DNA of 31,978 bases from a virus. Where the stretch lies: positions 1 through 31,978 of the IMG/VR virus record IMGVR_UViG_3300031974_003107, one strand, 5' to 3'. The notes under the pieces were generated by a model. That model made no database searches and was not told the DNA's origin. It saw nothing but the letters and a program-made list of their open reading frames with translations. Every line of letters starts with the position of its first letter. The stretch's first letter is position 1. Shown here one piece after another: positions 4,144 to 31,399 of this stretch. A program made the translations under genes and the position numbers.

Positions 4144-5301
4144 AAGCCCGCAAGTGTGGCGGTAAATCTCGCCATGCTCGCGATGATAGATAATCGCCTG
4201 AATATCCTTAGCCGACCTGTAGCCCTTGGCGTGGTGCCATGCATCAGATCCGGCTAGGGTGCGGGCGATTTCTACCGTGCACCCGGTATAGTCTTCCTGG
4301 ATCTTGCGGTGATGGAAGTGACCAATGAACCAAACTCGATGATCCGTTAGCGCCCAATCTTCCTTCCTGTCGCCCGCCATAATCATTCCCAGGTCATTCA
4401 TCTTTGGACCGTGGCCATGTGTGCTAGCGAACAGGCATTTGCCGAACCGCATAAAGCTAAACATGGACGGATCAACCGGAACCTCTACGCGCTTGTCATT
4501 CGAGTAATAGGCATTGAGGGACATGGCCAGCATCAGATAGCTGTGTGGGTCGTGGTTGCCCGGCCTATTCCAGACAATAACCCGGGCGTGCTTTTCCTTC
4601 AGCCGGTCGATTGCGTAGACCATCGCGCGAAAGGCCACCATCGCCACGCGGGCATAGCGACCATCAACGTCTAGCGTGTGGCCGCTGGCTGGCGTCCTGT
4701 TGCGGCTATCGTCAGCATGAAACATATCGCCCAAGTTGATAAACAAGCATTGCTCAGTGACAGGCGCGGCATCCACTAGCCGGTCAATAGATCCCGTCAA
4801 GCGGCGCTCAAACTCCACCAGGTCGAAGTTCTCGCCGACTTCTTTCTCCCAAGCGAGCATGCCGCAATGCGGATCGCCCATAGGGATAACCGTCATTAGA
4901 TCAGCATCGCAGCCAAGCGGGGCCGGTGATGGATTGCTTGCGCCCTTTACGCCCTCCGTTAGCGCGTCGATCATATCGCGCAGGCGGTCTATCTTGTCTT
5001 CCTCTAGCGGACTTTGCCGCTCCCATACCCGCTCTACATCGCCACCAGGACCGCGCTGGATTGTCACCTTGCCCATGCGATAGCCGGGAGCGGTGCCGCC
5101 CTCAAAGTGTCCAGGCGCATACCCTTGGCGCGCAGCTTCAGCCTTGGCGCTTTCTAGCGAGCGGTGAAACGCTTTGGCCGTACAGCCCAGAGCATCAGCC
5201 GCCTTGCGTTGTGAGCCGTGCTCAAGCCAAGCGCGGAGCCGTTCCTTCTGTAAGTCGGTGCGGGCGTAGTTTACAAGTGCGGGATCAAACGGTGTTTGCA
5301 T
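4114..5301 (-). CDS. Phage metallophosphoesterase with N-terminal HTH
   Basis: This 395-aa protein is chosen to start at 5301, seven bases after AGGAGG. Residues 15-52 (ERLRAWLEHGSQRKAADALG) look like a helix-turn-helix. From residue 138 the calcineurin-type phosphoesterase motifs appear in order: GDPHCG (142-147), LGDMFHADD (190-198), RPGNHD (246-251), THGHG (294-298) and GHFHHR (327-332), giving a complete dinuclear metal site. The substrate is unknown; nuclease or phosphodiesterase activity on DNA or nucleotides is likely. It is monocistronic, reads toward the early operon, and lies across a divergent region from the RNA locus at 5361. Confidence 0.85.
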   Translation of the reverse strand: MQTPFDPALVNYARTDLQKERLRAWLEHGSQRKAADALGCTAKAFHRSLESAKAEAARQGYAPGHFEGGTAPGYRMGKVTIQRGPGGDVERVWERQSPLEEDKIDRLRDMIDALTEGVKGASNPSPAPLGCDADLMTVIPMGDPHCGMLAWEKEVGENFDLVEFERRLTGSIDRLVDAAPVTEQCLFINLGDMFHADDSRNRTPASGHTLDVDGRYARVAMVAFRAMVYAIDRLKEKHARVIVWNRPGNHDPHSYLMLAMSLNAYYSNDKRVEVPVDPSMFSFMRFGKCLFASTHGHGPKMNDLGMIMAGDRKEDWALTDHRVWFIGHFHHRKIQEDYTGCTVEIARTLAGSDAWHHAKGYRSAKDIQAIIYHREHGEIYRHTCGLSMIAPNSAP

Positions 5302-5360
5302 GGGGTCGCCTCCTATATGTAGCGGGGGCATGATATACTAGGCACAATATATAGCAAGGG

Positions 5361-5389
5361 TTGACGCGCTAAACTCAACGCCCTAATAT
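5361..5389 (+). promoter_or_regulatory. Rightward promoter of the small RNA/attenuator locus
   Basis: TTGACG (5361-5366), a 17-base spacer and TAATAT (5384-5389) form the best sigma70-like match in the window, with a start near 5396. A GTTGA/TCAAC inverted repeat spans its -35 and spacer and could serve as an operator. A/T-rich TATATA on the left may hold the leftward promoter of the metallophosphoesterase, but no good -35 spacing was found for it. Confidence 0.6.
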
Positions 5390-5395
5390 ACCCAT

Positions 5396-5467
5396 ATCGC
5401 ATTTCCTTATTTTCTGGGGTGTGAGAAGCCCCAGCGCCCGGTCACCAAACCGCGCTGGGGTTTATTT
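5396..5467 (+). ncRNA. Putative ~70-nt small RNA or attenuated leader
   Basis: It lies between a strong promoter and an intrinsic terminator, with no ORF inside. The 5' end is unstructured and pyrimidine-rich (ATTTCCTTATTTTC), complementary to AAGGAAA-type ribosome sites. Three arms follow: CTGGGG (5414-5419), CCCCAG (5429-5434) and CTGGGG (5455-5460). The middle arm can pair with either neighbour, so an antiterminator and a terminator hairpin exclude one another. Confidence 0.45.
5426..5467 (+). terminator. Intrinsic terminator with competing upstream arm
   Basis: CCCCAGCGC (5429-5437) pairs perfectly with GCGCTGGGG (5452-5460); AAG/TTT extends the stem to 12 bp, and TTTATTT follows. The same CCCCAG can instead pair with CTGGGG at 5414-5419. 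Confidence 0.75.
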
Positions 5468-5586
5468 CTGCTTTAGCTGATCGAGCGCCCGGGTTGCACT
5501 TGCACACGTTGGCCGGTGTGTTAGGCGCGATGGGCTAAAGTTGCGGTCAAGGCTGGGCCGCGATCCATTGTTACAACTGGCAAACT

Positions 5587-5624
5587 GAGGGGGATTGCGT
5601 CTTGTACGTTCCCCCTCTTTTTTT
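5587..5624 (+). terminator. Intrinsic terminator
   Basis: GAGGGGGA (5587-5594) and TCCCCCTC (5610-5617) form an 8-bp stem with a 14-base loop, followed directly by seven Ts. It ends any transcript from the left and insulates the promoter that starts two bases later. The 120 bases before it hold no ORF; a doubled TTGCAC at 5494-5505 lacks a good -10. Confidence 0.85.
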
Positions 5625-5625
5625 G

Positions 5626-5654
5626 TTGCACGCCGGAAAATGCCGCGCTATACA
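5626..5654 (+). promoter_or_regulatory. Promoter of the 5680 gene
   Basis: TTGCAC (5626-5631), a 17-base spacer and TATACA (5649-5654) predict a start near 5661, giving a short leader with AAGGAGA before the ATG at 5680. Confidence 0.65.
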
Positions 5655-5679
5655 ATAGTCATCAACAAGGAGAGACACC

Positions 5680-5985
5680 ATGGCTAAGATTGAATCGGCA
5701 TTTGCATCCAACAACGTTGCTTCTGTACAGAATGCATTTGACTATGCTGCTGACCTTGCGGATGATGCATTTGTTTCTAACACGCCCGAGGCATATGCCA
5801 AGGCCGCCGATTTCAGCCTCATGCTGTTCGCCTTCGCTGAAAAGTGGGACTTCGATCTTAGCCCGATTGATTTTTCAGGTGCACCGACTTGCGAATTGTA
5901 CGAGCGGCGTGCGAAGGCAGAGGCTGTTGCTAGGGAAGATCAAGAGCGCCGCCGTCTCAACAAAGTTATGTTTGTCGGCTTCTAA
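5680..5985 (+). CDS. 101-aa protein, unknown, own promoter and terminator
   Basis: The ATG follows AACAAGGAGAGACACC. The protein is acidic and helical (NAFDYAADLADDAF, AYAKAADFSLMLFAFAEKW), with a charged C-terminal helix (EAVAREDQERRRLNK). No family is recognised. It is the only rightward gene between two long leftward blocks and has a complete transcription unit (promoter 5626-5654, terminator 6018-6049), the arrangement of a phage moron. An overlapping frame at 5690-5995 is Leu/Arg/His-rich and rejected as a shadow. Confidence 0.75.
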   Translation: MAKIESAFASNNVASVQNAFDYAADLADDAFVSNTPEAYAKAADFSLMLFAFAEKWDFDLSPIDFSGAPTCELYERRAKAEAVAREDQERRRLNKVMFVGF

Positions 5986-6017
5986 CTGCAATTAGGCATT
6001 GACCCGAATATATCGGA

Positions 6018-6049
6018 GAGGGTCGGGGTTATGCTCCGGCCCTTTCTTT
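6018..6049 (+). terminator. Intrinsic terminator of the 5680 gene
   Basis: GAGGGTCGG and CCGGCCCTT (6018-6026/6036-6044) pair over nine positions with G-U pairs, followed by TTTCTTTAT. The remaining bases to 6167 hold no credible gene. Confidence 0.7.
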
Positions 6050-6167
6050 ATGCGCCAAGATGTGTATGATGCAAGCATGCGTGAGACGGCCCCGGATGCC
6101 GCCATCTGAAAAGATGCGAACCACGCTAGGCGGGATCTGGTGATGCGCACACCATTTCCTGCCGCAC

Positions 6168-6593
6168 TTATTCCGGCTTCTGGTTTTGACCTACGTTGAC
6201 GTTCACGCCGCTTCCGGTTTTCTCAATCGTCCGGCCTACCACGTAACCGCCTAGCCCTACCGTTAGCAGGCCCCACATGCCTTCGGGGATTTCCAGGACT
6301 GCGACGGTCTGGATGCCGAACGCTTGCAGCCACGGGACTACGATATAGTTGTTTGCCAGGATAGCGCCGAACGTCAGCATAATAAGCGGTCGCCAGTTGC
6401 GCGCTAGCCAGCTCTCGCTTTGCGCCTCGGCCACCACTACGTCACGGGACGCCTCGACCAAGGCCGTTTCCTGGGCCAGCAATGCCAGCCGAAAATTGCT
6501 CTCGAACTCGGCCCGCTTGTCTGGATCCTCGATGTATTCGCTAATCAGGCTTGAAACAGGCCCGATGATGCGCTCAATAAATCTACCAATCAT
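6168..6593 (-). CDS. Holin, GTA/three-TM type
   Basis: The start is set at 6593 (MIGRFIERIIGPVSSLI) with CGGAGAG four bases upstream; the longer frame to 6686 overlaps the neighbouring gene and has no ribosome site. The 141-aa protein has an amphipathic N-terminal part, a charged helix (DPDKRAEFESNFRLALLAQE), then NWRPLIMLTFGAILANNYIV and GMWGLLTVGLGGYVVGRTIE as membrane segments. The NWRP turn followed by these helices is typical of the holin family found in gene-transfer agents and alphaproteobacterial phages (PF11351-like). It would form the inner-membrane lesion that releases or activates the endolysin. Confidence 0.75.
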   Translation of the reverse strand: MIGRFIERIIGPVSSLISEYIEDPDKRAEFESNFRLALLAQETALVEASRDVVVAEAQSESWLARNWRPLIMLTFGAILANNYIVVPWLQAFGIQTVAVLEIPEGMWGLLTVGLGGYVVGRTIEKTGSGVNVNVGQNQKPE

Positions 6594-6604: not shown

Positions 6605-6880
6605 TTACCCAGCCCCGCCCGTAAACTTGATCCCAGCATAGGACAAGACAAAGGCAACCGCGCTTGCGATGCCGTGGCCGATCCACTTGGCCCGCTCTAA
6701 TGCCGTGATGCGCTCGTCATGCTTGGCAATGTATTCCGTGACCGCGCTATTGCGCTCGTGGCGCATTTCCTTATCAGCCTTTAGCCCAGCCTCGAAAGCG
6801 GCCAGCCGTTCAAGCGTTTCAATCTGCTTATCGCGGATTTCTTTGATTCCGTCTTCCAAGCGTTGCAGCTCATTGGTCAT
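6605..6880 (-). CDS. Coiled-coil membrane protein, XhlA-like lysis accessory
   Basis: This 91-aa protein consists of a long charged coiled coil (residues 1-65, ELQRLEDGIKEIRDKQIETL) and one C-terminal membrane segment (IGHGIASAVAFVLSYAGIKF). That layout is seen in haemolysin XhlA-like proteins that accompany phage holins and endolysins. The start overlaps the endolysin stop (ATGA). It could be a second holin component or an antiholin. Confidence 0.65.
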   Translation of the reverse strand: MTNELQRLEDGIKEIRDKQIETLERLAAFEAGLKADKEMRHERNSAVTEYIAKHDERITALERAKWIGHGIASAVAFVLSYAGIKFTGGAG

Positions 6881-7305
6881 GGCTTCCAGCCCTCCGGCAT
6901 AGCGTGCGAAAGGCCAAGATATTTCCCTTTAATCCGCGACCATGTGGCCGGGTTGTCAGGTGTGCGGTCTGTGCGCACATCGAGATGCATCATTGGGCCG
7001 GGCGTGGTGCCGGGATAGAACCCAATTCCAGAAGCGCCTGCACGCTTGGCCGCGTCGTACGCCCGGATGAATCCCTCGTTACCTAAACCCATAGGGAACA
7101 CGTCAGCCGCGCGCACCTCGCCCCATTTGTCAACGTTGTGCTGGGATAGATCATCGCGGCCACCGTGTCGGCCTAGCGCGTCGGCGTGCGGGCTAATCAT
7201 CACAGGAGCGCCCCAAATATCGCGAAAGTCGTCTAGCACTTCCAGGAGGTCTATTGACATAAGCTCCCACCACTCGCGGAACTCAGTTGGCCTAAAGTAT
7301 TTCAT
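6877..7305 (-). CDS. Endolysin, M15-type peptidase
   Basis: The 142-aa product has the zinc-site layout of M15 D-Ala-D-Ala-type peptidases: SQHN with His56, AADVF with Asp68, and MMHLDVR with His107, preceded by GIGFYPG. It would cleave peptidoglycan cross-links. No signal peptide is seen, so export would need the holin. It is the first gene after the tail fibre, and its leader contains a strong hairpin (7324-7353) before the ribosome site AGGCAGCAAC. Confidence 0.8.
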   Translation of the reverse strand: MKYFRPTEFREWWELMSIDLLEVLDDFRDIWGAPVMISPHADALGRHGGRDDLSQHNVDKWGEVRAADVFPMGLGNEGFIRAYDAAKRAGASGIGFYPGTTPGPMMHLDVRTDRTPDNPATWSRIKGKYLGLSHAMPEGWKP

Positions 7306-25930: not shown

Positions 25931-26128
25931 TTAAGCTCTGCGGCCTTGCGCGTCCTTAACGCATACATGGCCAACAGAAACAGCAACGTCAGGCGCTTGC
26001 TCGTATAAATCCCGCGCTGCTTCATAGCACTCCGCAGCGGTCGCGAAGGTTAGGCGGTGCTCGGCCTGGATCTGCTCAGGCTGGCCGCTCTCGTTCAATA
26101 CGATAATCATGATAAGCAGCTTCCACAT
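25931..26128 (-). CDS. 65-aa secreted or membrane-anchored small protein
   Basis: The start at 26128 (MWKLLIMIIVLNESGQPEQI) has GGAGAG six bases upstream. A short basic/hydrophobic start (MWKLLIMIIVL) resembles a signal or anchor, followed by an acidic helical domain (AAECYEAARDLYEQAPDVAV) with two Cys and a basic end. No family is recognised. A damaged partial copy of its N-terminus lies just upstream (26185-26265). Confidence 0.6.
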   Translation of the reverse strand: MWKLLIMIIVLNESGQPEQIQAEHRLTFATAAECYEAARDLYEQAPDVAVSVGHVCVKDAQGRRA

Positions 26129-26247
26129 ATACAACTCTCCGCGCACTTGCTAGCCGATGCCTAGCCTAGCGAAATTCGTGCTTATCACTGGCCGCTCTCG
26201 TTCAATAAAATAACCATCTGGCCGCTCTCGTTCAATAAAATAACCAT
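26081..26247. repeat. 30-bp repeat: one diverged and two tandem copies
   Basis: A 30-bp unit is exactly tandem at 26188-26217 and 26218-26247. A third copy with a few differences is at 26081-26110, within the gene at 25931-26128. Homology of the upstream copy continues beyond the unit (GAAGCTCTTGATC versus GAAGCTGCTTATC, read on the minus strand). Confidence 0.9.
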
Positions 26248-26265
26248 GATCAAGAGCTTCCACGT
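26185..26265 (-). pseudogene. Partial paralogue of the 25931 gene, start lost
   Basis: Read leftwards, codons encode TWKLLIMVILLNESGQ, then MVILLNESGQ again, then a stop. This matches MWKLLIMIIVLNESGQ of the adjacent gene, but the start is ACG instead of ATG, the last ten residues are duplicated, and the domain is missing. A 20-aa peptide could still start at the ATG at 26247. Confidence 0.65.
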
Positions 26266-30831: not shown

Positions 30832-31399
30832 TTCCGTATCCCATGCGCAGCTTAATGAACTCAATTAATAGTGCGTATTCCTGGGCACTCTGGCTTTCTC
30901 CGTGCGCGAGCTTCACGCGACACTCAAACTGCTCAAGCGTCCCAGAAAAACACCCTCGCGAGACCCCAATGCCGCCCTTGGACTTGAACGCGGTCAGCGT
31001 GCCGTTTTCAGATCCGACGTTGGAAAACCATAAGCACTCAGATCTGCCGTAGACCCGCGCATCGCCGCAGACCGCCGCATTGCCGTAGACCCACGCATTG
31101 CCGTAGACCTCCGCATTGCCGTAGACCCGCGCATCGCCGCAGACCCACGCATTGCCGCAGACCTCCGCATCGCCGTAGACCCGCGCATCGCCGCAGACCG
31201 CCGCATTGCCGCAGACCCGCGCATCGCCGTAGACCCACGCATTGCCCTCATGGCTCAAGTTGGCCTCTGCCTCTATCCAACCTCCAACATCTCCAATCGA
31301 CACGCCGATTGACTCAATAGCGGTGACAGCGCGGATCTGGCCAAGCGTCCGCGCCCCAATTGTCTTCGCCTTTCCGGTGAATTCGTACTTTCTAGGCAT
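30824..31399 (-). CDS. Hexapeptide-repeat (left-handed beta-helix) phage protein
   Basis: Starts at 31399 (MPRKYEFTGKAKTIGARTLG) with TTGGAG upstream and an 8-nt overlap with the preceding gene. Of 191 residues, 52-117 are eleven six-residue units of form G-[ND]-A-x-V-[YC], which fold as a left-handed beta-helix. It is flanked by GDVGGWIEAEANLSHEGNAW and a C-terminal domain (GSENGTLTAFKSKGGIGVSR, then GCFSGTLEQFE). The whole layout (KYEFTGxxK, GGWIExExNLS, hexads, TLTAF..., GCFSGTLEEFE) is known from phage and prophage proteins of YdcK-like shape with unproven function. Confidence 0.75.
   Translation of the reverse strand: MPRKYEFTGKAKTIGARTLGQIRAVTAIESIGVSIGDVGGWIEAEANLSHEGNAWVYGDARVCGNAAVCGDARVYGDAEVCGNAWVCGDARVYGNAEVYGNAWVYGNAAVCGDARVYGRSECLWFSNVGSENGTLTAFKSKGGIGVSRGCFSGTLEQFECRVKLAHGESQSAQEYALLIEFIKLRMGYGNA
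31049..31246 (-). repeat. 18-nt coding tandem array, 11 units
   Basis: Eleven units of 18 bp encode the hexads. Units vary in a few positions (Tyr TAC or Cys TGC; Asp GAT or GAC versus Asn; Trp/Arg/Ala/Glu at position 4). High similarity also leaves both other frames open, which creates spurious ORFs. Confidence 0.9.

Follow-up and report, generated by a model that had tools for sequence, protein, structure and literature searches.

The window, that is, the whole stretch of DNA analysed here, is a virus record of 31,978 bases, classified as a linear and perhaps fragmentary sequence. On its gene content the virus is a P22-like podovirus, because genes for a terminase, a P22-type portal and a Phage_capsid_3 coat protein are present, all of them on the minus strand. 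Its host is probably an alphaproteobacterium, as judged only from an ar14-like RNA (described below) and weak phage kinship. The late genes run leftward on the minus strand, beginning with the structural proteins and continuing through a gene at 6877-7305 and the gene g6605 to a holin with three transmembrane segments that ends at 6168. The metallophosphoesterase gene, on the same strand, follows the holin and starts at 5301, with AGGAGG upstream of its ATG. Between the holin and the phosphoesterase genes lies a plus-strand cassette made up of a putative RNA region, a 101-aa orphan gene at 5680-5985 (the 5680 gene) with a good ribosome site, AAGGAG at 5667, and a terminator at 6005-6050 that refolds from an earlier hairpin.

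Elsewhere in the window, 30994-31350 on the minus strand encodes a repetitive protein of the YdcK beta-solenoid type (PF18836), in which short and nearly identical repeats are numerous. In addition, the gene-poor stretch 26160-26250 contains a near-tandem repeat, TGGCCGCTCTCGTTCAATAAAATAACCAT, around 26190-26248, which also resembles the sequence at about 26084-26112.

A cassette probably particular to this lineage

The intergenic DNA had no homologue in phages, plasmids, 50 related phage records or phage loci when searched by nhmmer and blastn. A lone 19-nt match in another phage record was rejected as a homologue since it lies inside a coding region. A covariance model built from the single sequence and run against 1 Mb of relatives and the 50 records recovered only itself and chance matches. 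The 5680 protein likewise matched nothing in PHROGs, in Pfam, among phages, in IMG/VR or in GTDB genomes, and no relatives of the phosphoesterase were confirmed in GTDB genomes. A terminase search found one relative that is 96% identical, the 9.4 kb contig of which stops short of the RNA region.

The closest phosphoesterase relatives are those of another phage record (61%) and of Pseudanabaena phage Pan3 (50%), and in both a gene on the same strand lies directly upstream of the phosphoesterase gene with no gap. By a loose ORF test, such a gene abuts the phosphoesterase gene in 68 of the 79 assessable relatives. Because of this arrangement in the relatives, the segment 5302-6167 looks like a lineage-specific cassette, most readily interpreted as having been inserted in this lineage. 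Lambdoid phages carry 'moron' elements, and the layout of the cassette appears comparable to theirs.

Promoter, terminators and structure of the putative RNA

The putative small RNA would extend in its long form from 5396 to 5624 on the plus strand, its start being placed from a sigma-70-type promoter, TTGACG-17-TAATAT, at 5361-5389. The initial annotation called this promoter near-ideal, which overstates a good site that agrees with the consensus at 9 of 12 positions. The promoter is intergenic and ranks fourth in the window by a weight matrix with approximate frequencies; matches of its quality are no more common than in shuffled sequence (7 found and 7.1 expected in 12 kb). Back to back with it on the minus strand stands a divergent promoter-like site, TTGCTA-16-TATCAT (5330-5357; rank 8 in the window), which suits the metallophosphoesterase gene. 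The -35 box of the RNA promoter is also covered by an inverted repeat (GTTGA/TCAAC), GTTGACGCGCTAAACTCAAC at 5360-5379, which is the sole such match in the window, where 0.15 would be expected, and is a possible operator.

No convincing ORF follows the promoter, as had been claimed. Among sense frames inside 5396-5624 that start before the second terminator, the longest has 19 codons from a GTG and lacks a clear ribosome site. The whole RNA (5396-5625) folds better than all but one of 200 shuffles (z -3.28), and the segment 5381-5460 ranks fifth for structure among 3190 scanned segments of 80 nt (z -4.67). The first terminator, T1 (5426-5468, inverted repeat I9, -24.3 kcal/mol), has a stem formed by 5426-5437 and 5452-5463 followed by TTTATTT, and would mark the 3' end of a short form. 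It is an intrinsic terminator as described but not a perfect one, in that the apical part of the stem is interrupted and an A lies inside the U tract (UUUAUUU). A read-through form would contain a long internal hairpin at 5469-5542 (-32.3 kcal/mol); the segment 5461-5540 is only moderately better than shuffles, with a z of about -2. The second terminator, T2, was confirmed at 5587-5624 (-18.9 kcal/mol), with arms GAGGGGGA at 5587 and TCCCCCTC at 5610 and seven T from 5618, and is the predicted 3' end of the long form.

No tRNA was found, and no part of the window matched any riboswitch, leader or sRNA family of Rfam above its gathering threshold. Within 5340-5680 the best Rfam matches, of about 14-15 bits, are at chance level.

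Below threshold, the minus strand at 31776-31865 matches ar14, an alphaproteobacterial sRNA family, with 32.4 bits (gathering threshold 58.8; E 1e-4). This segment (z -4.78) forms two tandem hairpins with anti-Shine-Dalgarno loops, CUCCUCCUU and UUCCUCCUUU, and the second hairpin is followed by U7. In members of the ar14 family, NfeR1 among them, there are three hairpins with CCUCCUCCC (PMC10746234), whereas two are present here. The segment is possibly a phage-borne ar14-like RNA, and as such is perhaps more interesting than the locus at 5396-5624. It had no DNA match in phages, and pattern hits for it in IMG/VR were rejected because they lie within open frames or fold poorly. Another phage record, G063 (the contig of L113), has a sub-threshold ar14-like match of its own at 68910-69024 (25.9 bits, E 2.5e-4).

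Competing hairpins and the proposed transcription control

The three arms named in the initial annotation are present, CTGGGG at 5414-5419, CCCCAG at 5429-5434 and CTGGGG at 5455-5460. The upstream arm is complementary to the 5' arm of T1, so that a first hairpin (5414-5434, -12.0 kcal/mol) and T1 could exclude each other. In prefix folding, the first hairpin is the minimum free energy structure of prefixes ending at about 5434-5456 and is displaced once the 3' arm of T1 has been made. The exclusion is thus possible, but the alternatives are far from equal, since T1 is stronger by about 12 kcal/mol and the antiterminator would be unable to compete unaided. By chance, a 6-nt competitor arm turns up in 4.3% of leaders after shuffling and in 5.4% of segments drawn at random from the window; of such random segments, 36% have a first structure at least as stable as the one here. 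Under a strict rule, a competitor arm was found at only one of 147 terminators in the phage DNA scanned, namely at this locus, which is therefore unusual at the level of a few per cent and not more. A search of IMG/VR with three-arm DNA patterns gave no homologue; its one chance match lies inside an open frame. At 6005-6045, an ordinary terminator at the end of a gene, a transient early hairpin is replaced in the same way. Overall, the case for an on/off switch at 5396-5624 is weak and close to chance expectation. Hairpin arms that compete beside a strong terminator are easily spotted by eye, and controls for stability and chance are needed.

These results bear directly on the proposal that the locus is a regulatory RNA or an attenuated leader. 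In the latter case T1, and perhaps T2, would control transcription from 5361, and read-through would express the 5680 gene, with the first hairpin stabilised by a factor or by a stalled ribosome. In favour of this, the three-arm geometry is real, prefixes ending at about 5434-5456 fold preferentially into the first hairpin, and the promoter-like site of the 5680 gene itself is weak (TTGCAC-19-TACAAT, 5626-5656, plus strand, rank about 75). As in transcription attenuators and riboswitch leaders, an upstream arm could exclude the terminator stem. Unlike them, the locus has strongly unequal stabilities, no arm of 5 to 7 nt upstream of T2 that could compete with it, and no Rfam match above chance; nor is there a credible leader peptide. 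Attenuation is thus unlikely, and this part of the proposal is unsupported. Instead, the RNA unit looks closed because T2 has no competing arm and the 5680 gene possibly has its own promoter downstream of T2. Together with the refolding at 6005-6045 and the ribosome site after T2, these features speak for a closed transcription unit rather than a controlled leader. The regulatory RNA is plausible, since it has a promoter of its own, lacks an ORF, is significantly structured, carries two terminators and stands apart from the next gene.

A leader that modifies the polymerase or controls late genes, like lambda pR'-6S-tR' or HK022 put, is improbable in the extreme. In the lambda 6S RNA, or pR'-tR' leader, a short phage transcript is ended by a terminator soon after the promoter, and here too hairpins and a terminator lie close behind the promoter at 5361-5389. 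However, the minus strand carries the lysis and structural genes, so such a leader has no late operon to open downstream on its own strand; past the terminator that follows the 5680 gene, the plus strand lies antisense to the late genes. Gene orientation has already largely refuted this explanation.

A more serious alternative, possible although on the doubtful side, is that the locus is ordinary intergenic DNA. A modest promoter and tandem intrinsic terminators would then keep the divergent phosphoesterase promoter and the 5680 gene insulated from one another, the first arm would be a 6-nt repeat that arose by chance, and any short RNA would be functionless. The chance rates of 4-5% for the arm and 36% for the first structure agree with this explanation, as do the transient refolding of a plain terminator, the frequency of promoter-like matches in shuffles and the lack of detected conservation. 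It accounts less well for the strong structure in the 5' part, for the separate structured stretch between T1 and T2, and for the rank of the promoter in the window.

A probable stand-alone small-RNA gene and its candidate target

The best explanation, in which confidence is evenly poised, is that this P22-like podovirus carries here a stand-alone small-RNA gene, with a short form of ~70 nt and a read-through form of ~230 nt; its transcription, ends and function are inferred. The gene would sit with the orphan 5680 gene in the lineage-specific plus-strand cassette. Host polymerase would start near 5396 and mostly stop at T1 to give an RNA of about 70 nt, while the fraction that reads through would stop at T2 and give an RNA of about 230 nt. 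In the computed folding path, the first hairpin would form during transcription and then be displaced by T1, and the AU- and pyrimidine-rich 5' end would be single-stranded before T1 forms and partly closed afterward. In favour of this gene are the intergenic promoter of rank 4, the lack of a convincing ORF, the structure and the two terminators in the same direction, to which the closed-looking unit, the absence of the cassette from relatives and a complement to g6605 may be added. Against it stand the failure to find a homologue and the promoter-quality matches that are as common in shuffles, together with the unexceptional energy of the candidate pairing, its p with the whole RNA as query and the partial closure of the pairing segment, all described below.

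If the RNA acts, it most likely does so by base-pairing through its 5' end. The suggested pairing of this end with ribosome sites is no more than generic: at gene starts, true Shine-Dalgarno complements reach 8 nt at best, one of the pairs being G-U. By length of complementarity, the best phage target would be the g6605 mRNA. Within the 5' 30 nt of the RNA, the segment CGCAUUUCCUUAU (5398-5410, plus strand) is a perfect 13-nt complement of this mRNA at 6762-6774 on the minus strand (AUAAGGAAAUGCG with the g6605 coding strand), at codons ~36-40 of the 91-aa gene. The g6605 protein has a coiled coil and a C-terminal membrane segment, and its family matches are weak; it is regarded as a lysis gene because of its position between the 6877-7305 gene and the holin. 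A complement of 13 nt was reached by 8 of 500 shuffled 5' ends when either strand was allowed and by 0.7% on sense strands. The post hoc p is 0.007-0.016 for the 5' end and 0.096 with the whole RNA as query. Moreover, the duplex is not exceptional by energy in an ungapped stacking scan with approximate G-U energies, and the pairing segment, computed to be open in the nascent state, becomes partly paired once folding is complete. The pairing with g6605 is thus a lead only, of low confidence.

Further matches between the RNA and g6605 were observed. A second colinear complement to the mRNA, CUUUAGC (5471-5477), was noticed post hoc and is not counted as evidence. The g6605 stretch 6738-6800, which includes the 13-nt complement, and the RNA have the 10-nt TGGGCTAAAG in common in the same sense, and the stretch contains a near copy of TCAAGGCTGGGC from the RNA, again in the same sense.

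The anatomy of this putative small-RNA gene resembles that of lambda OOP and P22 sar, which consist of their own promoter, a small RNA and an intrinsic terminator and are antisense to cII and ant, respectively, with the target at the same locus. Here too a short autonomous unit of this kind would stand among phage genes. In contrast, the transcript at 5396-5624 overlaps no gene, and its lone candidate target is 1.3 kb away and has a 13-nt complement. Both OOP and sar are described as short phage antisense RNAs in a review that also covers PAK_P4as15, which is antisense to the endolysin gene in Pseudomonas phage PAK_P4 and is proposed to delay lysis by pairing with the mRNA of a lysis gene (PMC12197685). 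Like PAK_P4as15, the RNA considered here is a phage RNA that is a candidate for pairing with the mRNA of a lysis gene. PAK_P4as15 is antisense at its gene, however, while the candidate pairing here would be in trans and over 13 nt only.

A further, very improbable elaboration is that the choice made at T1 acts as a seed switch. The nascent 5' end, CGCAUUUCCUUAU, would pair with the g6605 mRNA in trans until formation of T1 closed this seed in a 5' hairpin, and the phage would time lysis in this way. If this were true, the terminator of the RNA would hide the RNA's own seed. If the locus is transcribed, it would give a phage lineage that has received little study an orphan small RNA, for which the lysis cassette offers a concrete candidate target.
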